35,951 nt of DNA from Bacillota bacterium. GTDB lineage: Bacteria; Bacillota; UBA4882; UBA8346. The stretch covers positions 1 to 35,951 of the forward strand of contig JAAYHS010000031.1 in the NCBI GenBank assembly GCA_012735315.1, in the 5' to 3' direction. Numbering within the stretch: position 1 is the stretch's first letter; each line of letters opens with the position of its first letter. The notes under the pieces are model-generated. The model was not told where the DNA came from. It was given only the letters and a program-made list of their open reading frames with translations, and ran no database searches. The translations under genes were made by a program, and so were the position numbers. Of this stretch, positions 3,695 through 16,152 are shown one piece after another.

Positions 3695-6600
3695 TTACCC
3701 CATTTCCCGGTATGCGTTGAGAATCTCCTTTGCCACCCGTTCAATTCCGAAATTCTCCAAAACATGTTCTCGTAAACGTTCGGCCTTTTCGATTCTTTCA
3801 GCTTCGTGACTCAGATAAAATTGTACTTTAGCCAGCAATTCTTCCCGGTTTTGATAAATCTCCAATAAACCGTTGAAAGGTTCCAATACTCTTTCGCCGA
3901 CGGTCCGGACCAAACTCCCGTTAACAAGGAAGAATCCTCCCATGGCGATACCGTTAATCAGGTCCGGTTGCAGATAGGAGTTGTTATTCCACATTAAACT
4001 CGGGTAAAGATTGATTTTGCTTTGCAAGACCGTGTTTTGATACTCCTTGCCGAAGGATTCAAGAGGAGGCTCACGGTAGCCTTTTAAGCTCAGATCCTGC
4101 TCCCAACCGGCGCCATATAGTTTGATGTCGAATTTCGGCTCACTATTGACCAGCCATTTAACTTGGACGGAGGTCAGCAATGAATCTTCCAGTTGACGCC
4201 GGAAAAGCCCGGCTATTAATCGCAGAATTTCCGGTTCTAAAGCCCGATCCTTCTTTTGAAATTCTTCCCGGATTACATTTTGATAAAATTCATCATCGGG
4301 CGTTAATGACCCTTGCTTGAGCAACCCGGTCATCAGTTTAAAAACGACCGCGCGGCAAATACTAATTATCGCTTCTCCGCTCAAATTTCTACCGCCTGCT
4401 AGGATCCCCATAACAGCCGCGGCTAACGTTTGGAGGATTTTTTCTTGATCTTTTAAATCCTTAATGACCGAAATCCGGTTTTCTTTTATCAGGTTGGCCC
4501 TTTCAGCAGTGGACATCGGTAAATACGGTAAAGGGACGGATTTGATCTGTTCCGGAAGAAAACCCCGTTCCTTAAGACCGGAATTAACTGAAGATGCGCC
4601 GCTGATTAAGACTTTTTCCAGCGGATGGCTCGCGGTAATATTTGGAACTATCCAACGATCAATTATTTTCCAGCTTATAAAGGGAATAGAGAGGTTTTTA
4701 TAGGCCTCCAACTCTTCCGCCGTAGCGAACAGGTGAACCGCCAAATCCGGTCTGAAACTTTCCAGCCTGCGAAGATCATCATATTTATTAAAGTTATAAA
4801 AAGGAGGACTTTCATAAGCCATTTCGGCTTCAAAACCATTTTCCTTGAAATGTAATCGCAATGCTTCTCCATACCGGAACAAATATTCCTCCGCGCAACT
4901 GGCAACGATTAAGATTCTCTCTGCATGCTCCGGCTTAGTCCGGTCATAGTATTTTTGAAGATTAGCGAGCCTTTCTTGGAAGGAGTTTTCTTTGACAGTC
5001 TTTACCTTCTCTAATAATCCCTTGATCTCCCCAACATCGGTTCCGTATAACACATTCGGAAGGGGGACCTCATCTTTTTGAAAGAATTCTTCCAACTTAT
5101 CATTTTTAACGCCGATTAAAAAATGTATGTTTCGAAACTCCGCCAATTGGTTAAAATCGAATTTCTGCATCATTAATCGCCAATTATCAAGTTGGTGTTC
5201 GATAATAAATACCGGTAAATTTTTTAATGATTGCCGTATTTCGAACGGCGACTCTCGATAAATACGATTTAGATGATGATAGATGCCTGCGTCGTCCGTA
5301 TTATAGATTAAAACCGTATCATTGACGGAGAACTCGAAAGCGGTAGAAGGAGACTCGTTTACCGCCAATAAAAACCGTTTGGAACGGCTATCGTAAACAT
5401 ATTCCACATTGAGAAAATTGCAGGTTTTTAAAGGAACTTCCTCATAATCTCCGAAGTTGATTCCTTGTTTCTCGAAGAATTCTTTATTAAGTCGATAGCG
5501 CCGTTCAAAGTCGGATTCCTTTAATTCCTTCAATAGTTGGTTTAATCTCTTTTGAAGCCGCTTCCGGATTGTAAATCGGCCGTTTATGTCATTGATCTCA
5601 ACTTTGACTTCCGAATCCAATTGTAATCGATGCAAACATTCGATCCGGAGATATGCGTAAAAACAATTCCTCCCGGTTATGGATGCGAAATCAACGATAT
5701 AATTGTTGGCCGCCACATAATTCATAGCGCGATAGGCGTTTTTTACAAGCATCCTCCGGCAAAAATCCGGTTTATAATTCAACCGGAGACAGTTTTCCAA
5801 AGACGATTGGACTTTTGAAAAATTTTGCAACTTCCGGTAACATCGGTATAACAAAAAACCGATCTCGGGATTCTGTTGATCCTCTCGTTGCGCTTCTTCC
5901 AATACCTGGATAGCTTCAGTAACATCATTTCTCTTGTATAAAACCAAACCATATAAAAACCGGAATTCATTTAAGTCTTTTCGTTCACCCCCGCGGACCA
6001 CAGGTTTTAGATAGGCTTGGATTTCAGTTAAGTTTCCGCCGTTATTAATCCAATCTCTAATCTGAACCGGGGTTTTTGTATTGGCGATTTGAATTAACGA
6101 GGGCGTCTCTTTTTCAGTTTCGTTCGTTCCGTTGACGGGAGAATTCGATAAATGTTTGAAAACATAATCCAAATACTTTTTAGTTTCACCGATAATGTTA
6201 CTCCAATGTTGAAGTTTCCCGTCAAAACCTTCCTTAGTCCTCACTTTCCCCAAGTTGGCGATGGCGATCTGATTCGGAGCTATCTTCCAATCTTGGAGAT
6301 CTTTTAAAAACAACCGCCATTCTTTAGTAGTAATAAACGCTCCATACTCATCGGCTATATCTTTCAAAGCCGAATCAATTTTGTCTTGAAACGCTCCTTC
6401 GGTTTGATTCAAATGTCTTAATCCTTGGACCCGATCCCATAGTAAATCCATCTTTAAGACTCCCTGCCGGGACATGGTTCTTATTTGTCCAATAATATTT
6501 TCACTCCCGGCATGACCTCTCCTTATCGTTTTTAAACCCAAATCGTATAGTTCATCAATCTTCCGGCTGATTCCCCGCTCTTTACGGCAATACTCATCAA

Positions 6601-7957
6601 TGAGATCGGCTAGTTTATGATTGGGGACGCCTTTGATGGGCTGACCCCCTTCGGTGGCGTTGAAAATCTTTTTATCCCGGTAATATTCGGAAACCATCAA
6701 TTCAAACAAAACTCTAAAGCTGTCCAGTTGTTTATCGGTGACAATATCCTGACCGTAAATATCTTTGGTAATAAAACAATTGGGCGGTAATTTGTTCCGA
6801 TCAATGACTTTTTGATACAGACTTTCGGCGTAACGCTTGTCGCCGGTATAGGCCAAATCCTGCCCAATCAAGATTACCGGGGAACAGCCAAATTTTATGG
6901 CCAAGTCCACGGAAGGATGGGCCACGGAAAACCCGCTCCTAACCGTGCCGAACTCATAATTTCCGAGTTTTAGCGAAAGAAAATCCGAAAAGGTTTCCGT
7001 ATCCAGTTTCATATAAACTTTTTTACCGCCGAAATAAGAAAGAGCCGCGTCATTAAAGCGGTAATTGTAAATAAGGCAGATATCGTCCAAATCCAAATTG
7101 GCATAGATTTTTTTATTATAATCGGTGCCGTCAAAAGCCACTAAAAAATGGGGCGATACCCCAAACTTCCGCATCGCCCGGATGCTGGTCCCGGCGCAAA
7201 TGATTACCGCTTTATCCTTAATATCATTCAGTAGGTGGATGTTTTTCTCCAAAGAGGGACCCGCCGAAACAATTATCGCCGGGATCCCGTTAAATTGATT
7301 GAAAAAATGCTTGACTCCGGGTGAATTGATAATGGTCGGCAAGTTCTTGATCGCGTTTGACACCCATTTTTCGCCAAAATGATTGGCAGTGGCCAGATTA
7401 GCGCGGTTAATTCGTACCGACTCGCGCAATATATTTTGAAAAGCCCCAATTTCATCGGGGAAAATATCCTGATAAGGCGGAAGTACTACCAAGTCCGAAT
7501 CAAGAATCAAATACATTAAATATTGACTGACCAAGCCGGCGCACTCACCATAATTGTTGCCGGCAAGCAATAAATAATCGCCTTTTATCTCACTTAAATC
7601 AACTTCATGAAGACAAGCTTTCAAGATCGCCGGCGATGGTTCATAACAAACCACTCTTTGATAGCAACCCAATCTCAAAACGGCTTTCAAATGATATAAA
7701 AATCCGCCCCCACAAAAAATCAGCGCGCTTTTATCTCCGGCGTGTCGTTCAACCCAACGTTCGGCTTCCAACTCCGGATCATAAGCGCTATTCAAATAAA
7801 CCTTTCGCTGATCCTTGATTATCCGGGCGACCGGCAAACCATTCCGGCTGCTGTTGATTTCCAGAGTTATTCCATTACTATCCGGTTTCCCTTTTAACTC
7901 TTTTAAGAGATGTGGGTATTTTGCCTTAATATAATTTAAATTTTTTTCGTAAATCAC
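3695..7957 (-). CDS. Maf-type flagellin nonulosonate transferase fused to TPR and CgeB-like glycosyltransferase parts
   Basis: This very large protein (1420 aa) has a Maf/DUF115 (MptE-like) domain at about residues 200-400, with PAIIVSAGPSLEKNI and later LIGQDLAY. Maf proteins move nonulosonic acids onto Ser/Thr of flagellin in the cytoplasm. Residues about 660-740 look like TPRs. The C-terminal part resembles CgeB/YkvP-type glycosyltransferases: a Rossmann-like start at ILIVASCAEEYLFRYGEAL near 1015, then a typical end from KLYGAGW through the SLMWNNNSYLQPD region to the last residues. Ordinary Maf proteins are much shorter (roughly 600-700 aa), so this is a fusion. The start is uncertain. 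A GTG at 7966 lies inside the ribosome site; the GTG at 7957 has AGGTGA at good spacing, so I prefer it. It follows the 116-aa gene almost without a gap. Confidence 0.85.
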   Translation of the reverse strand: MIYEKNLNYIKAKYPHLLKELKGKPDSNGITLEINSSRNGLPVARIIKDQRKVYLNSAYDPELEAERWVERHAGDKSALIFCGGGFLYHLKAVLRLGCYQRVVCYEPSPAILKACLHEVDLSEIKGDYLLLAGNNYGECAGLVSQYLMYLILDSDLVVLPPYQDIFPDEIGAFQNILRESVRINRANLATANHFGEKWVSNAIKNLPTIINSPGVKHFFNQFNGIPAIIVSAGPSLEKNIHLLNDIKDKAVIICAGTSIRAMRKFGVSPHFLVAFDGTDYNKKIYANLDLDDICLIYNYRFNDAALSYFGGKKVYMKLDTETFSDFLSLKLGNYEFGTVRSGFSVAHPSVDLAIKFGCSPVILIGQDLAYTGDKRYAESLYQKVIDRNKLPPNCFITKDIYGQDIVTDKQLDSFRVLFELMVSEYYRDKKIFNATEGGQPIKGVPNHKLADLIDEYCRKERGISRKIDELYDLGLKTIRRGHAGSENIIGQIRTMSRQGVLKMDLLWDRVQGLRHLNQTEGAFQDKIDSALKDIADEYGAFITTKEWRLFLKDLQDWKIAPNQIAIANLGKVRTKEGFDGKLQHWSNIIGETKKYLDYVFKHLSNSPVNGTNETEKETPSLIQIANTKTPVQIRDWINNGGNLTEIQAYLKPVVRGGERKDLNEFRFLYGLVLYKRNDVTEAIQVLEEAQREDQQNPEIGFLLYRCYRKLQNFSKVQSSLENCLRLNYKPDFCRRMLVKNAYRAMNYVAANNYIVDFASITGRNCFYAYLRIECLHRLQLDSEVKVEINDINGRFTIRKRLQKRLNQLLKELKESDFERRYRLNKEFFEKQGINFGDYEEVPLKTCNFLNVEYVYDSRSKRFLLAVNESPSTAFEFSVNDTVLIYNTDDAGIYHHLNRIYRESPFEIRQSLKNLPVFIIEHQLDNWRLMMQKFDFNQLAEFRNIHFLIGVKNDKLEEFFQKDEVPLPNVLYGTDVGEIKGLLEKVKTVKENSFQERLANLQKYYDRTKPEHAERILIVASCAEEYLFRYGEALRLHFKENGFEAEMAYESPPFYNFNKYDDLRRLESFRPDLAVHLFATAEELEAYKNLSIPFISWKIIDRWIVPNITASHPLEKVLISGASSVNSGLKERGFLPEQIKSVPLPYLPMSTAERANLIKENRISVIKDLKDQEKILQTLAAAVMGILAGGRNLSGEAIISICRAVVFKLMTGLLKQGSLTPDDEFYQNVIREEFQKKDRALEPEILRLIAGLFRRQLEDSLLTSVQVKWLVNSEPKFDIKLYGAGWEQDLSLKGYREPPLESFGKEYQNTVLQSKINLYPSLMWNNNSYLQPDLINGIAMGGFFLVNGSLVRTVGERVLEPFNGLLEIYQNREELLAKVQFYLSHEAERIEKAERLREHVLENFGIERVAKEILNAYREMG

Positions 7958-7969
7958 TATAGTCACCTT

Positions 7970-8511: not shown

Positions 8512-10118
8512 TTAACCCAAAAGCTGCAATACCGATTGCGGTTGAGTATTGGCTTGAGCCAACATCGCCGTACTGGCTTGGGTGAGAATCGAGAGCCTGG
8601 TGAATTCCATCATCTCCGCAGCCATGTCGACGTCTCTGATTCGGGACTCGGATGCGGTGATGTTCTCCGCGGCGACACCCAAGTTATTGATGGTGTGCTC
8701 TAAGCGGTTTTGCACGGCTCCAAGGTCGGACCGCAACGAAGACACCCGGCTGATCGCCTCGTCGATCTTGGTGATCGCCTGGCCAGCGCTGAAGGCGTCG
8801 ATGACAAGAATATTATGGACTCCGAGGGACTCTGAATCCATTCTGCCGATGGCCGCGCCCATGTTCTGGAGTTCGTTGGCGCCGATCTGGAAGACCTGAG
8901 TGTTGTCTGCCAAGTGGACCGAAGTTGTGTATCTACCAGTTGAGCCTGTTCCACTGAAGTAACCCGCATCGTTCCATTTTACCTCATAATCGGCGTCACT
9001 GGCGAATTTTACGTCTACATTTTGATGAATGATGCCGATAAGGTTGTTTCCTTGGACCGTATTGCTGGATATTACCGTACCGGCCTTTGAAACAAAAACT
9101 TTATAGGTGTTCTCGGTCGCTTTCTGATACTCGGTGAATCCAAAAGCGTTCAACAACTGTTCACTGGCGACAACAGTGATTTTACCATCTTTGCCGGCAA
9201 TCGCGGAACTCAACACGAAAGTTCCGGAAGTACCCAATGCTCCGCTACCGGCGGTTGTGTTGTATGTGGCCAAAGCTTGATTGCCGACACCGGTCGTACT
9301 GGACATACCCAAATCGGTAGCCATTGCCTGATTAAATTTGGCAGCCAATCCCGAAAGGGTGTCATTACCGAAGACGGTGAAGGAAACAGATTTACCGGTA
9401 CCGTCTATTAAGGTGATCTTCTGCGGATTGTCCAACAAGAACCGGCCATTGGCGTCATAGAAACGATCTACGTTGTACAATTTCGTGCCGGCGGAAGCCA
9501 CAATACCGGCCTGGGTCCCGGAAAGCACTCCGCCCAACGTGGTGGTTTTGAAGATGGTTGAAGTCTGGACTTGGGTCTTACCGGCACTCGTCAAATCAAT
9601 TTCTAACTTGTAAGTCCCGGCGGCGGAAACCGAACCATCCCGGATACCGCCTCTTAGATAAATCTTGGTGGCTTCTTATCGGAGGAACTGATGGCTGATG
9701 CGGTGCCGTCCAACAAATTCTTATTATTGAATGAGGTGGTATTGGCGATCCGGTCGATTTCGTCTTTGAGCTGTTCAATTTCCTTTTGGAGTTCGCTCCG
9801 ATCGTTGGCGGTATAGGTGGCGTTCGCCGCTTGGACCGCCAGTTCCCGCATCCGGTGCAAGATCGAATGGGTCTCGGTCAAGGCTCCCTCTGCGGTCTGC
9901 AGTAACGAGATGGCGTCCTGGGAGTTACGGGCTGCTTGATTCAAGCCCCGGATCTGGCTGCGCATGGTTTCCGAAATCGCAAGACCCGCGGCGTCGTCGG
10001 CGGCCCGGTTAATCCGGAGACCGGAAGACAGCTTCTCCATGGTCTTCCCATTCAGGTTGTTCACGATGCCCAAATTCCGATGGGCGTTCAGCGCTGATAA
10101 GTTGTGATTAATTCTCAT
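8512..10118 (-). pseudogene. Flagellin, complete in both ends but interrupted by a one-base frameshift
   Basis: This is the filament protein, exported through the flagellar type III system. The N-terminal D0/D1 part (from 10118) starts MRINHNLSALNAHRN and includes SSGLRINRAADDAAGLAISE. The C-terminal D1/D0 part ends ANTQPQSVLQLLG, the standard flagellin end. The first frame runs into a stop at 9654. The rest of the protein continues in another frame, which can be read upstream as ATKIYLRGGIRDGSV up to about 9672. Restoring one lost base near 9672-9680 (for example DKE instead of DKK) gives one protein of about 535 aa, with a roughly 250-aa variable middle. The ribosome site is AAGGAGGAG. A real loss-of-function mutation, an assembly error, or slippage-based variation are all possible. 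With intact glycosylation and chaperone genes around it, I favour sequence error or a very recent mutation. Confidence 0.85.
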
Positions 10119-10951: not shown

Positions 10952-11407
10952 TTATTTCGCCGATTTTAATTCATTTTCTTCCTTTACTTTCGAAAATAGC
11001 GGGTGTTTGATACCGTAAGCCGGATTATTTAGAATAACTTGGACGCCCCGTTTTTCTTTAACGTTTATTACCAGCGGAGCAGCCAGATTAACCGTAGCTT
11101 GACTAATATCGGACGGTAGAACAACAATCGCGTAAACTAAAGATTCCTCCGGTTTTCCCAGTTTGAGTTCGACCACTACTTCATCGGGAAGATCAATCTC
11201 ATAATCCGGGACCACTTTGCCTAACTCGATTATAATGAAGGCAAGATCGGCCCGTTCCACCGACTGCAACACATGGAAAGGGGAATCGTCGTGCTTTAAA
11301 ACGGTGAATTTATGAGCATTTTCAAACCCCGGAATGCCGTGGGGAAATTCAATGATCTGCGAATCTTCGATTTCAACCGCGCCGAAAAACTTGGTCTCGA
11401 TCTTCAT
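10952..11407 (-). CDS. fliW: Flagellar assembly factor FliW
   Basis: This 151-aa protein has the FliW opening MKIETKFFGAVEIED and the IIEFPHGIPGFENAHKF signature. FliW binds CsrA and also flagellin. When flagellin is exported, FliW is freed, captures CsrA and lets flagellin be translated. The start is the ATG at 11407 with GGAAGGA in front. The gene lies 23 bp after flgL. A 176-bp AT-rich spacer separates it from csrA, longer than other gaps in this operon, so csrA may have a promoter of its own; I could not identify one with confidence. Confidence 0.96.
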   Translation of the reverse strand: MKIETKFFGAVEIEDSQIIEFPHGIPGFENAHKFTVLKHDDSPFHVLQSVERADLAFIIIELGKVVPDYEIDLPDEVVVELKLGKPEESLVYAIVVLPSDISQATVNLAAPLVINVKEKRGVQVILNNPAYGIKHPLFSKVKEENELKSAK

Positions 11408-11430: not shown

Positions 11431-14175
11431 CTATCTTAAATAATCCAAGAGCGTCATCGGCATAATCCGGCCCGCGGACTGTAGCGCCGCCTGATAAGCC
11501 GTTTCCTGCATCCTTAATTCCAGAATAGCCTTGGTGATATCGACGTCTTCCACGTTGCTTAATAATTTTGTTAGGTTCTCATTCAAACTCTTTAAACGGT
11601 CGATCCCTTTTTCAAGGCGGTTAACCTTAGCCCCGACTTCGCCTTGGGTTACCAGCACCTTATCGATATCGAGCCTGATATTGTAAAGGTCTTCTCCGGA
11701 AAGGGCTTCAATATTGTTGGCCCTTAAATCCTGACTAATTTTGGCCAGGTGTTGGAAGATGGGATCAAATAACTTATCGCCGATGACATTGATTTGAATT
11801 TCCATCGAAGTGCTTATCTCATACTCAATATAACCTTTATTCCCTTCATAGTTGGGGGTCTCCGTATCCGAAGAAACCCCGTCGGCGAATCCCATGATCC
11901 AAAGAGCGTCCGCCTCGTTCCCTGAAAAGAGCGTAATTGACAGCGGATTGTTAAGTTCATCCTGATGGAAGATACGCAGCCGGTTATCCGGAGTGGCTTC
12001 CACTCTGACATTGGCATATTCGCCGCCCCGCGCCCGAATCTTTTCCTCGATCATCCGCGCGAATTCCCTAATGTTGTACGAACCCCCGTTCAAACTGATC
12101 TCCTGGGTCAACTCATTGCCGACTTTTATTCGGAACTTATTGTTGGCGTTAATATAACTATGCGCGTCGATCGAATACTTGGAACCGGCTATCGGGGGAG
12201 GATTGCCCCAGGCGCTATCCAAAGTGGCGATACCGGTAGTTCCGTCATAATCCGTAATGATTCTGGTTTGGCTTTTCCCTTGTCCATCGGTGATGGTGAT
12301 CGGCATCCCCACATAAAAGTCGTCAGTCCGGCTGGCATTAGTATCTAACTGAATTTGGTTAGCATTCACAGGGTTAGAGCCCACTTCTCCGTCCAAAGGC
12401 GGAACCAGTTCATATCTGGCGCCCGGCGATATCGTAGTAATCGACAGTTGAGCTTCACGAGTCGCGCCGTTATAGGCCAAAATCCGGTCGGTATATACCG
12501 CTCCCGAAGGTTCAATTATTTTAATGGTCCAGTTATTATAATAATCATTTTCGGCGCTTGCGCCATCGCCCAAAGTTAGCACCGATGGCGTCCCAGCTGT
12601 AAAACTTTGGACCGTTCCCATTTCCGGATATTTGGCCAATACTTTGATTAATGGCTCAACCTCGTAACCGAGCAGTTCCTTGGTGGTCGCCCTATTGTCG
12701 AATCCAAGCTGGGCCAAAGCGGTGTCGGAAATTTTATAGGTCGAACCGGCGGTTACATTGGTAGTCCAGTTACCTTTAACTGTTATCGTATAAGTTGGTG
12801 GCGTTGCCGTATCGTCATACTCATAACCGGTAATCAGCTTTGTTTCCGTAGACCCGTCGGGATTGGTAACCGTGATCGACGCTCCAACATAAAAATCATC
12901 GATCATGCTGGCGCTGGCTTCCAGTTGGATTGAGTTCGCGCCGAAGGATACGGCCTGTCCTTCCAGATGCGGCTTAATCCGGTATTTGAAATTCCCGGTT
13001 ACGCCCCAACTATCTCCGATGGTCACCTCATGTGTTAACTCATCATATCCGGTAATTAAATGGGATTCATAGATGCCGCGCTTTTCATCATAAATCTCAA
13101 TTTCCATTCCAACGTAAAAATTCTCGACATCGCTGGCTGGACTTAAACTAATTGTAGACCCGCCATTAGTAATCGCTGCTGTTCCTTCCAAAGGAGGCAA
13201 CAATTGGTATACGGAGGTGTGATCCGGCTCTATGCCCCAGTCTTCGGTTACTGTCGCAACTCTATCGTCGGTATAAGCACCGATAGTTCTTATTTGCCCA
13301 ACTCCAGTGCCTTCAATAATTTTGATCTGCCATCCATTATAATAATCATCCGCCGCAATAGCCGACATCCCCAGAGTAATTTGATCAGCCGCGCCGCCCC
13401 GAGCTTTTCCCACTTCCTTAACGGCCGGACCGTCCCTCAGCACCAAAGTATGGATGCCGTCCGAGGGATAAGTTCCGGCATAAAATTCCAACCGGTTATC
13501 GGGAGTGGCCTTGACGTAGACCGGCGTGTCAAAACCGGCATAGTGAAGTTTTAATTGGATATCGTTGGCCAAATCGTCCAGGGTGTTCCCGGGCGAACCG
13601 TCATAAGTTTTGGGCGTCAGTCTAATCGTTACAAATTCGCCGTTATCCAGTTTAATATCGAGCATATTGTTCCGATCGGTGATCACAATCGGATTCAACT
13701 GAAAATTGATCGCGTCACCCGTAACTTTGGTCCGGTATTGATAAGGCGGATTCAAGTATTTTTCCCCGCCGAAAATAAACCGGTTATCGATATTGGTGTT
13801 GGCCACCTGCATAATCCCGTCTCGAATAACATCAATCTCGTTTGCGTAGGCCTCCCGGGCTTCTACGGTCAAAGTCCCGTTGGTTCCGGCAATCACCAAT
13901 TCGCGAACTCTCTGCAAATAGTTGGTCAAAGTCATCAAGGCGTCGTCGGTGCAATTCAGCCAACTGATGGCTTGCTCGCTGTTATCGATATATTGCAGGA
14001 TCTCCGCGGTACGGCTTCGAAAATCCATAGCGCGGGCGGTCCCCACCGGGTCGTCCGAAGGCTGTTGGATACGTCTTCCGGTGCTAACCTGATTGGTCTT
14101 TTTATAGATGCTCTCTTCCAGTTTCATAAAGTTATACGAAAAATTCGAGTAAATCATCTTATTGGAAACTCGCAT
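11431..14175 (-). CDS. flgL: Hook-filament junction protein FlgL (HAP3) with a giant repeat-containing insert
   Basis: The N-terminus (MRVSNKMIYSNFSYNFMKLE, then STGRRIQQPSDDP) and the C-terminus (VEDVDITKAILELRMQETAY, ending MPMTLLDYLR) are standard FlgL helices that join hook and filament. FlgL is normally about 300 aa; this one is 914 aa. The insert holds five related segments of about 60-70 aa, at about 264-325, 340-400, 413-483, 531-592 and 606-669. Each is built on (D)DFYVGM or DDYYNGW, then I-x-I, a (T/S)-x-x-I-x-x-Y turn and a W-G-containing strand. They are flanked by two related modules ending in VKATPDNRLEF (near 221) and VEATPDNRLRI (near 725). The insert probably forms surface domains at the junction. 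The ribosome site is AAGGAGG and the ATG is at 14175. Confidence 0.93.
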   Translation of the reverse strand: MRVSNKMIYSNFSYNFMKLEESIYKKTNQVSTGRRIQQPSDDPVGTARAMDFRSRTAEILQYIDNSEQAISWLNCTDDALMTLTNYLQRVRELVIAGTNGTLTVEAREAYANEIDVIRDGIMQVANTNIDNRFIFGGEKYLNPPYQYRTKVTGDAINFQLNPIVITDRNNMLDIKLDNGEFVTIRLTPKTYDGSPGNTLDDLANDIQLKLHYAGFDTPVYVKATPDNRLEFYAGTYPSDGIHTLVLRDGPAVKEVGKARGGAADQITLGMSAIAADDYYNGWQIKIIEGTGVGQIRTIGAYTDDRVATVTEDWGIEPDHTSVYQLLPPLEGTAAITNGGSTISLSPASDVENFYVGMEIEIYDEKRGIYESHLITGYDELTHEVTIGDSWGVTGNFKYRIKPHLEGQAVSFGANSIQLEASASMIDDFYVGASITVTNPDGSTETKLITGYEYDDTATPPTYTITVKGNWTTNVTAGSTYKISDTALAQLGFDNRATTKELLGYEVEPLIKVLAKYPEMGTVQSFTAGTPSVLTLGDGASAENDYYNNWTIKIIEPSGAVYTDRILAYNGATREAQLSITTISPGARYELVPPLDGEVGSNPVNANQIQLDTNASRTDDFYVGMPITITDGQGKSQTRIITDYDGTTGIATLDSAWGNPPPIAGSKYSIDAHSYINANNKFRIKVGNELTQEISLNGGSYNIREFARMIEEKIRARGGEYANVRVEATPDNRLRIFHQDELNNPLSITLFSGNEADALWIMGFADGVSSDTETPNYEGNKGYIEYEISTSMEIQINVIGDKLFDPIFQHLAKISQDLRANNIEALSGEDLYNIRLDIDKVLVTQGEVGAKVNRLEKGIDRLKSLNENLTKLLSNVEDVDITKAILELRMQETAYQAALQSAGRIMPMTLLDYLR

Positions 14176-14235: not shown

Positions 14236-15663
14236 TTAATATAGTTTCAATCTATTTACGATTACGTCCAACATTTGATCCATGGTGGCGATTATTTTGG
14301 CGGCCGCATTGTAGCCGTGTTGGAACCTGATCATGTTGGTCATCTCTTCATCAAGGTTGACCCCGCAAACGGACTCGCGGCGTTCGTCCAAATTGGCGAT
14401 GAGCCTGACTTGTCCTTCATATTTCACCTTGGCGGCGCTGGTCTTTTCTCCTAAGTCGGCGATTACGGCGCCGATATACTCTCCCATGGTGGCGTTGCTA
14501 TTGTTTAAAAGCCGCTTATCGAACAATCGGGAGATTTCCAACATTATTTCATTGTTACCGGGCAGTTCTTTCTCCGTATTGACCAACTCGCTGGAAGCCG
14601 CGATCCGATTCAAACCATTCTCAACGTCTTTAATGGCGTCCGCCAAGTCGATATCCGCGGCGCCGGTCCCTTTAAAGAAATCAATACCACGGCTCTCATC
14701 GAGCCCATATCCGGTACGATGAAGCTTATTAACTTCAGTGATTAATGTTTTTGCGAAATTGTCCAAGTGATTTAAAAACTCCGGCAAGTCTTGGTCGCGC
14801 ATTTCCAGAAGCCCTCTGAGGGAACCGCCTAATACCGTGACCTCCTTGTCAAGCCGTTCCCATTTCAACCGGACCATGCCTTCGTCGTCGTGATTGGGTT
14901 CCAAAATGATTTTATTGGCGGTAATACCCTGGACCAGGGCGATACCGTTAATGGTAATATTGACCCGGTTGAATTTGTCGGTGGTTTTACTAATTTTAAT
15001 GATTCCCGAAAGTTCTTCAATTAACGCGTCTCGTTGGTCCATCAGATCATTGGCGTGATCGTTCATCATGGTCACTTTGGAGATTTGATCGTTTAAGAGA
15101 GCGATCTTTCCAGCGATGGTGTTGACGTGGTTCACCTGTTCCTTAATCCGCTCGTTGGCTATGGAACGTAAGGATTTCATCCGCTGGTAATCCTGTCTGA
15201 TTAACTCGGTCATAGTGATCGTCTCTTGCCGCAACACGGAACGGGCCGGTTCCGAAGTAGCGTTATTGGCTACTCCCTGAATTGCTTTCCAAAAATTATC
15301 GATCGCCGTCCGAATATTAGCGTCGGAGGGTTCGTTCACGATCAGTTCCATTTCGTCCAACATGGTTTTACGGCTTTCCCAATAACCGGAAAGAGAAGTT
15401 TCCGCCCAAATTTGCTCGTCGATCAATTCATCGCGGATCCGCATCACCGCCGTAACTTCTACGCCGGTTCCAAGCTGCCCGGCGGTTTGGACCCGATTGA
15501 AAGCCGGATATGTAAAAGGTTGAGTAGTGGTCATTTCCCCTCTTTGTCTGGAATATCCGGGTGTACTGGCATTAGCCATATTATGGCTGGTAATTTCCAA
15601 TTGTTTTTGATGGGCTTGTAATCCGAGACGTCCGATTTCCAATCCGAAAAAAGTCGACCGCAT
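14236..15663 (-). CDS. flgK: Flagellar hook-associated protein 1 FlgK
   Basis: This is the first of the two hook-filament junction proteins. It starts MRSTFFGLEIGRLGLQAHQKQLEITSHNMANASTPGYSRQ, given here in part as the rod/hook motif ITSHNMANASTPGYSRQ. It ends with the matching C-terminal helix (MIRFQHGYNAAAKIIATMDQ). The length, 475 aa, is near the short end for FlgK, in contrast to the oversized FlgL next to it. The start at 15663 has AGGGGTG in front. It sits 6 bp after flgN, whose product is its likely export chaperone. Confidence 0.95.
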   Translation of the reverse strand: MRSTFFGLEIGRLGLQAHQKQLEITSHNMANASTPGYSRQRGEMTTTQPFTYPAFNRVQTAGQLGTGVEVTAVMRIRDELIDEQIWAETSLSGYWESRKTMLDEMELIVNEPSDANIRTAIDNFWKAIQGVANNATSEPARSVLRQETITMTELIRQDYQRMKSLRSIANERIKEQVNHVNTIAGKIALLNDQISKVTMMNDHANDLMDQRDALIEELSGIIKISKTTDKFNRVNITINGIALVQGITANKIILEPNHDDEGMVRLKWERLDKEVTVLGGSLRGLLEMRDQDLPEFLNHLDNFAKTLITEVNKLHRTGYGLDESRGIDFFKGTGAADIDLADAIKDVENGLNRIAASSELVNTEKELPGNNEIMLEISRLFDKRLLNNSNATMGEYIGAVIADLGEKTSAAKVKYEGQVRLIANLDERRESVCGVNLDEEMTNMIRFQHGYNAAAKIIATMDQMLDVIVNRLKLY

Positions 15664-15669
15664 CTTTAT

Positions 15670-16152
15670 TCACCCCTTATAATCCAAGATCAAAGTCTTC
15701 TTGGAATTCTGCTTATCTTTATTTATTCTGCCGGAAGCTCCGTAAAACCCGCTTTCAGCGCTTGTTTGCGGCATTAAGGCATTTATGGTGAACTCAACTA
15801 TGGCCAAAGCGTCTTTGATCAAAGCCTGATTAAATTCATTGTTCAATTTTAACTGTTTGACCTGCCGGCGGAGTTCTTCAATAAGCGCGGCGACCTCTTC
15901 CGATCCTTTTTCAATTTTCGTTCCATCGCCGGAAAAACGTTCCCTTAAAAAAAATTGCACCTGTGGGGAACAGGCGTCATCAATTTTTTTTAATTTTTGA
16001 GACAACGCCTCTTCCTTGAGGACAATTACTTGTAACGCATCCAAATCATCTTTTAAGAGCGCTTCTTTCTTTAAAAGGCTCTGAGCGTTCAACTCTTTTA
16101 AAACGTCGATTTCTTGTCGGAATAATTCTGGGAGAGATTGACTTTCCCGCAT
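15670..16152 (-). CDS. flgN: FlgN-like flagellar export chaperone
   Basis: This 160-aa, highly charged helical protein begins MRESQSLPELFRQEIDVLKEL and is coiled-coil-like through about residue 130. Members of the FlgN family bind the C-terminal helices of FlgK and FlgL and bring them to the export gate. Sequence conservation in this family is low, so the call rests on size, helical pattern and the flgM-flgN-flgK order. The ribosome site (GGGAGGTAG) overlaps the flgM stop codon, so the two are coupled. Confidence 0.85.
   Translation of the reverse strand: MRESQSLPELFRQEIDVLKELNAQSLLKKEALLKDDLDALQVIVLKEEALSQKLKKIDDACSPQVQFFLRERFSGDGTKIEKGSEEVAALIEELRRQVKQLKLNNEFNQALIKDALAIVEFTINALMPQTSAESGFYGASGRINKDKQNSKKTLILDYKG

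Follow-up and report, generated by a model that had tools for sequence, protein, structure and literature searches.

The window analysed here, a stretch of 35,951 nucleotides from a Bacillota genome, carries on its minus strand a flgL coding sequence of 914 amino acids (11434..14175; stop codon at 11431-11433). The initial annotation described its product as a hook-filament junction protein three times the usual size, enlarged by tandem modules. The locus raises the question of whether this protein is a genuine FlgL, of what its additional part is composed, where else these domains occur, and what they might do on the flagellum.

Identity and anatomy of the enlarged FlgL

The open reading frame (11431-14175) scored 235.4 bits against TIGR02550, above the curated cut-off of 127.2, and the window genome holds no second gene over this FlgL cut-off. 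Pfam detected Flagellin_N at residues 3-137 and Flagellin_C at residues 837-913, in agreement with the earlier view that the helical ends are those of a normal FlgL. The N-terminal D0/D1 helices (residues 1-150, 13726..14175, minus strand as for all flgL features below) were modelled as helices at 5-126 and the C-terminal D1/D0 helices (residues 776-914, 11434..11850) as helices at 795-913. The best structural matches to the D0/D1 fold were FlgL structures, with Bacillus cereus FlgL (5ziy) at Z 17.1 over 168 residues and 2.0 Å. The gene order flgN-flgK-flgL-fliW is found in the window, all on the minus strand: the chaperone gene flgN (15670..16152; PF05130, E 1.6e-18) and flgK (14236..15663; TIGR02492, 369 bits) lie upstream of flgL, and fliW (10952..11407; PF02623, E 5.7e-39) lies downstream. 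FlgK, at 475 aa, is of ordinary size and, as had been noted, does not share the enlargement. The window protein is a genuine FlgL. Its size is exceptional: among the matches listed for the phylum Bacillota (150 FlgL frames), the median is 308 aa, roughly a third of the 914 aa found here, 135 frames fall within 260-400 aa, and the window's open frame (925 aa) is the longest. Seven other frames among the matches listed exceed 550 aa; FlgL open frames of 571-871 aa occur in G206, G043, G159, G171, G103, G084 and G117 of the same phylum.

Several neighbouring features were observed alongside flgL. The flagellin gene occupies two frames (8512-10118, minus strand), of which 9654-10118 contains only Flagellin_N and 8512-9594 only Flagellin_C; the split corresponds to a one-base gap relative to the sister genome G001, where the gene reads through, and is either a sequencing error or a real loss. 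Near a contig end in the same genome (G000:C160:21004-21336, minus strand), a flagellin/FlgL-like C-terminal stretch (199-aa frame, 41.6 bits) is perhaps a second flagellin. A 1423-aa protein encoded near the flagellin (3695-7966, minus strand) combines an MptE-like domain, TPR-like repeats and a C-terminal glycosyltransferase-like domain, and is perhaps a fused flagellin glycosylation factor. Through its N-terminal helices, the window FlgL matched two unnamed flagellin-like families in PHROGs; of two further weak rows, one touches unit M1 (E 0.2). The match of phrog_28924, a 769-position phage family, to the N-terminal helices (E 1.2e-15) may point to a phage-borne FlgL or flagellin.

Self-comparison of the protein in 25-residue windows gave best off-diagonal scores of 82, 81, 51 and 48, far above the maxima of 28-35 in five shuffles. 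A profile delineated five units of about 75 residues within residues 256-672, namely M1 (256-328, 13192..13410), M2 (330-403, 12967..13188), M3 (404-484, 12724..12966; 405-484 in the profile itself), M4 (520-593, 12397..12618) and M5 (596-671, 12163..12390), the last being the most conserved; these boundaries come from a profile that includes the window units themselves. When a profile was made from the window units alone, units of six other genomes scored E 1e-5 to 1e-28. The units are 21-40% identical to one another within the window protein. The five tandem modules of the initial annotation were recovered, over a shorter extent than the roughly 500 residues it had claimed: the units amount to about 375 residues, or 417 with the linker.

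Two larger domains, which we term cap-shared, accompany the units. The first part of domain 1 (residues 161-250, 13426..13695) is alpha/beta in the model and matched a profile made of family FlgL/FliD domains at 3.8e-18; its last part ('DTALAQLGFDNRATTKELLGY', residues 485-505, 12661..12723) was aligned with the natural empty site of the G006 FlgL and of four FliD proteins, and forms a short helix at 485-489 in the full-length model. M1-M3 are inserted in the loop before the last helix of domain 1, ahead of its 'LAQLGF' end. This interruption is recognisable because the G006 FlgL has domain 1 without units. M4 and M5 are placed between domain 1 and domain 2 (residues 673-774, 11854..12159). 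The two ATPDNRL domains proposed earlier as flanks are therefore present (161-249 and 673-774), but the first is no simple flank, since units 1-3 lie inside it, ahead of its final motif.

AlphaFold2 predicted M5 (residues 595-672, 51 sequences) as a compact five-stranded barrel with a pLDDT of 93.6 and a pTM of 0.83. The full-length model (five sequences; pLDDT 64.9, pTM 0.33) is globally poor, with low pLDDT at the outermost helix ends, and the barrel arrangement is not readable from it; within it, the five-strand pattern is repeated five times with block pLDDT of ~65-89. The prediction thus yielded five repeated five-strand units and not one ordinary domain without repeats. The exposed repeat domains that had been anticipated correspond to separately folding, duplicated units at the exposed D2 position of FlgL.

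Shared domains with the filament cap and conservation of the units

Comparison by hhalign matched FlgL domain 2 to FliD domain 2 (99.9%, P 1.3e-37) and to FliD domain 1 (97.8%), and gave 1.0% against the barrel unit. By these profiles, the two larger FlgL domains are recognisable as the outer domains of the filament cap FliD of the same bacterial family, and the alpha/beta domain and the barrel unit are unrelated. Pfam provided no name for the cap-shared domains, with no match for residues 160-252 and one unrelated match of 0.15 for residues 672-775. Flagellin_IN (PF07196) was absent at E<=1 from both of these segments and from the G005 FliD.

The same loop accommodates barrels in both proteins. 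The G005 FliD (1106 aa, with FliD_N and FliD_C) carries three barrel units in the same loop as FlgL units 1-3, and is the only FliD with barrels among the family genomes. The domain 1 slot holds three barrels in this FliD and in the FlgL of G000 (the window genome), G001, G003, G005 and G008, one barrel in the G007 FlgL, and none in the G006 FlgL or in the FliD of G000, G001, G006 and G007. Across the class, all 32 barrel matches at E<=1e-5 were located in FlgL (29) or FliD (3), in 7 of 29 genomes; as the class-wide profile was built from these FlgL and FliD proteins, their recovery is by construction, whereas their confinement to two genes is not.

In all seven genomes with an enlarged FlgL, FliD has cap-shared domains ahead of its core, one in G003 and G008 and two in the other five. 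The FliD of G002 and G004 has no cap-shared domain, and the G002 FlgL is ordinary (295-aa frame). The paired domains do not strictly co-occur in FlgL and FliD, since the FliD of G003 and G008 has only one ahead of its core. The co-occurrence in these few genomes would be explained equally well by shared descent. G007 possesses two flagellar sets (contigs C18/C8 and C44), one with a decorated FlgL and an enlarged FliD and one plain: at its second flagellar locus, FlgL is ordinary (TIGR02550 236 bits, no match to either domain) and FliD shows a single weak domain match (5.8e-7). Contig C8 of this genome also contains several flagellin-like frames of 773-789 aa.

The FlgL plan was found in 7 of the 10 family genomes, that of the window included; four metagenome-assembled Bacillota make up the named matches in the genome collection. 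Counting modules in relatives, as had been suggested, showed that the six other genomes share the plan with 5, 5, 5, 5, 3 or 2 units. The first and second slots hold 3+2 units in G000, G001, G003, G005 and G008 (the G008 FlgL is N-terminally incomplete, and the stretch used starts inside the gene), 1+2 in G007 and 0+2 in G006, with a weak first unit (E 8e-7). Same-slot units from different species show a mean identity of 45% (50 pairs) and units from different slots one of 29-30%, averages that leave out G006, G007 and the FliD units; the array of units thus predates these genera. Five units are retained in five genomes of three genera, and slot order is kept across these three genera.

Between G000 and G001, dN/dS was 0.05 in the helical ends, 0.05-0.09 in the cap-shared domains and 0.09-0.24 in M2-M5 (0.09 in M5), with synonymous sites of M1 not computable. 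M1 and M3 are the least conserved units, at 57% identity between the sister genomes. In a unit tree, starred slot clades were obtained for m1 and for most m3 and m5 rows; FlgL units form no single clade apart from phage units, and the starred branches force at least three changes. This tree comprises 75 columns, and the direction or number of transfers is beyond its reach; these few columns lend no support to one origin for all FlgL units. By these comparisons, the barrel units are old, slot-conserved and under purifying selection, and not the product of recent tandem growth.

The barrel unit in phage tails and pseudopilin-like proteins

The barrel unit was detected in 13 of 299 genomes of the phylum, the window's own included. 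The 12 other carriers comprise eight pseudopilin-like proteins, two tail sheath proteins (Phage_sheath_1) and two long unnamed proteins, and by inspection none is recognisable as FlgL or FliD; the pseudopilin-like label was given by eye in 8 of the 12, and the one that was scanned contains N_methyl. Loci L075, L076, L078 and L082-L086 are pseudopilin-like proteins of one other bacterial family (f32), with the barrel following the N-terminal helix.

With one barrel unit as the query, 29 loci were confirmed in viral contigs. A profile made only of FlgL and FliD units matched all 29 viral open reading frames at E<1e-3, in comparison to 0/29 reversed and 0/29 shuffled sequences. Ten of these frames were classified against PHROGs, four of them against Pfam too, which identified L122 as T4 gp8 (baseplate wedge), L115 as a head-tail adaptor and L116 as a virion or head-closure protein; the remaining seven received no name from PHROGs, four of the ten having also been compared with Pfam. 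A tail-tube label for L126 and L127, given by eye, is not claimed here, as Pfam and PHROGs assigned no family to L126. Among phage records, the unit is found in a gp8-like baseplate gene of vB_OspM_OC, in a baseplate wedge gene of Cr30 and, in Mae-JY22, in a hypothetical gene that follows a tape-measure-like gene two positions further downstream. A Pfam scan of 23 units at E<=10 gave only one-member matches. The unit is thus not private to FlgL, being present also in FliD, phage tail proteins and pseudopilin-like proteins, a distribution that the initial annotation had not recognised. This points to a mobile domain, one without a Pfam name, which connects the sheath and baseplate of phage tails with FlgL, FliD and pseudopilin-like proteins. 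The same building block seems to serve bacteria and their viruses in decorating tubes and fibres.

Structural comparison of M5 with the PDB pointed in the same direction. The highest match was a GTA virion chain (Z 10.4, 76 residues, 2.0 Å), and other tail-tip-type structures included the R4C baseplate-tail complex (Z 9.7) and the phage Chi tail tip (Z 8.4). Lower matches were GH110 enzymes (8.0-8.3), the Mystique tail tube (7.8), tailspikes or capsule lyases (7.2-7.6), a JBD30 baseplate chain (7.4) and the lambda tail tip (6.9, lambda residues 492-564); those under Z 8 may reflect a common geometry. Matches to F1 and V-type ATPases, E1 enzymes and a ribosomal chain (VIA-align Z ~6) were put down to common small-barrel geometry. 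Foldseek alone gave no row under 1e-3 for M5 against the PDB, and 17 rows under 1e-3 against a viral structure library, with TM up to 0.89. The top viral-library match, BFVD A0A1X9VNQ1, and A0A481Z1A5 are labelled as Mimivirus proteins (33% and 30% identity); if these labels are right, the barrel unit extends to giant viruses. A sequence search of solved structures with the unit profile returned only repetitive designed proteins and weak rows, dismissed as chance, and a PDB search with a profile of the window FlgL D2 region returned no flagellar chain.

Among named domains, the tail-tip hub domain Phage_BR0599 (PF09356) and the hub inserts of RcGTA gp13 and lambda gpJ (the HDIV insert) may share the fold of the barrel unit. 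JBD30 gp50 carries PF09356, and the JBD30 structure chain above was equated with gp50 by its length. PMC10721106 describes an extra beta-sandwich at lambda residues 483-569, where the lambda fold match falls. When the barrel unit was aligned by hhalign with 12 phage PF09356 rows, the score was 29.0, compared with at most 12.5 in 60 column shuffles, at a probability of 77.9%. By contrast, no cysteine occurs in M1-M5, the phage domain closing with a GC motif (12/12 rows), mostly GCD, and Phage_BR0599 was not among the 21 families listed in the scan of 23 units. PF09356 was not found in 101 genomes of the phylum, and the link therefore is one of fold and profile comparison. A distant relationship to Phage_BR0599, not membership, is probable.

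A proposed collar and its nearest known counterparts

According to PMC12221982, eleven FlgL subunits with exposed D2 make up the layer that separates FlgK from the filament, and this layer is ~150 Å wide in Salmonella; PMC6155364 likewise describes an exposed D2, which may reinforce contacts within the ring or junction. The collar at the hook-filament junction suggested by the initial annotation would be a natural consequence of 11 FlgL per junction, an expectation that draws on established FlgL structures. With 11 copies in the distal junction layer, 22 cap-type domains and 55 barrels would consequently face outward at the filament base. Sequence and prediction establish the anatomy, and the function is inferred. 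For the reading as a whole we favour, with a probability of roughly 0.55, a genuine FlgL whose D2 consists of a FliD-type pair and phage-tail-type barrels and forms an exposed collar that reinforces the junction and meets the cap, with the barrels as spacers or weak binders. Judging from homology and from co-occurrence in few genomes, the cap-type domains may offer the FliD cap a matching surface when the filament starts, so that junction and cap would meet through like surfaces; they may also strengthen the FlgL ring. The barrels, judged from their position, may serve as rigid spacers that point outward, any binding being weak and of low specificity, a role already proposed for phage-tail accessory domains.

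A collar with an adhesive function, in which the barrels bind polysaccharide, mineral or sheath material and surfaces or flocs are held by the flagellar base, seems to us rather unlikely. The barrels are repeated, lie in an exposed position and have relatives among phage-tail domains, their fold matches include phage tailspikes and GH110 enzymes, and an opinion quoted in PMC10721106 ascribes weak carbohydrate binding to the Ig-like domains of phage tails; that domain type, however, is Ig-like and not the barrel unit. No conserved binding residues were identified in the barrels. The unit occurs in sheath and adaptor proteins too, for which we know of no such binding. The comparisons spoke neither for nor against the surface binding or the resistance to a thick cell coat that the initial annotation thought conceivable. 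It is improbable that the extra domains piled up harmlessly in a tolerant, outward D2 loop: unit number does vary in the family (5, 3 or 2) and M1 and M3 are the least conserved, but slot order is kept across genera, slot clades are starred, selection is purifying and the five units persist in three genera.

Recent tandem duplication within the window gene alone, which the initial annotation implied in proposing growth by duplication, is very improbable. The units are homologous, adjacent and duplicated, and to this extent the proposal stands; its recent tandem expansion does not, as the window units are less similar to one another than same-slot units are across species, and FlgL units form no clade apart from those of phages. 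An assembly error or chimera can practically be discounted: the genome is indeed a draft in 216 contigs, and a frame shift disrupts the flagellin gene nearby, but the same gene, order and plan are present in six other genomes, with the G001 protein 81% identical end to end, and the enlarged FlgL is therefore no assembly error.

Beyond the favoured reading of a reinforcing, cap-meeting collar, we tentatively consider a broader idea, which we hold to be somewhat short of an even bet. One portable small-barrel domain may circulate between phage tails and bacterial surface filaments, repeatedly entering loops of tube-forming proteins, and FlgL and FliD may keep homologous outer domains for cap-junction fit, as a swappable handshake. 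The composition of the outer region provides a testable idea for the mutual recognition of junction and cap at filament start, for which natural versions exist: a single slot holds zero, one or three barrels, and G007 has both a decorated and a plain flagellar set. The outer domains of large FlgL proteins commonly pass for hypervariable regions with no history; in the present case their origin can be read, as cap-type domains plus a domain shared with phage tails.

A foreign domain in the exposed part of an axial flagellar protein has precedents. PMC5595980 reports 61 domain families in flagellins, with foreign domains placed in the hypervariable region, with flagellinolysin among the examples. 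Flagellinolysin-type flagellins are alike in this respect; they differ in placing an enzyme on many filament subunits, whereas the window FlgL would present repeated barrels, without a known enzyme, on 11 junction subunits. Our literature search, conducted mostly outside subscription papers, yielded no paper that describes this FlgL plan or domains common to FlgL and FliD. The window FlgL matched PRK08412 (827 positions) and PRK14692 (749 positions), which we take to be NCBIfam models of Campylobacter jejuni-type large FlgL, only partially, at 102.3 and 89.8 bits, below cut-offs of 749 and 878, with the best stretch in the N-terminal helices. The C. jejuni FlgL (750 aa, PDB 9gsx) is likewise two to three times the usual size, with a bulky, exposed D2 next to FliD outer domains, and the FliD outer domain D4 of C. 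jejuni is likewise added to the cap beside FlgL. PMC12221982 places this D4 between FliD D3 and FlgL, beside the bulky FlgL D2, before the first flagellin enters. Unlike the C. jejuni FliD case, the outer domains of FlgL and FliD are homologous in the family described here, and in one genome both proteins carry the same inserted barrels. Large size alone was already known; against the literature searched, the composition of the FlgL outer region is new.
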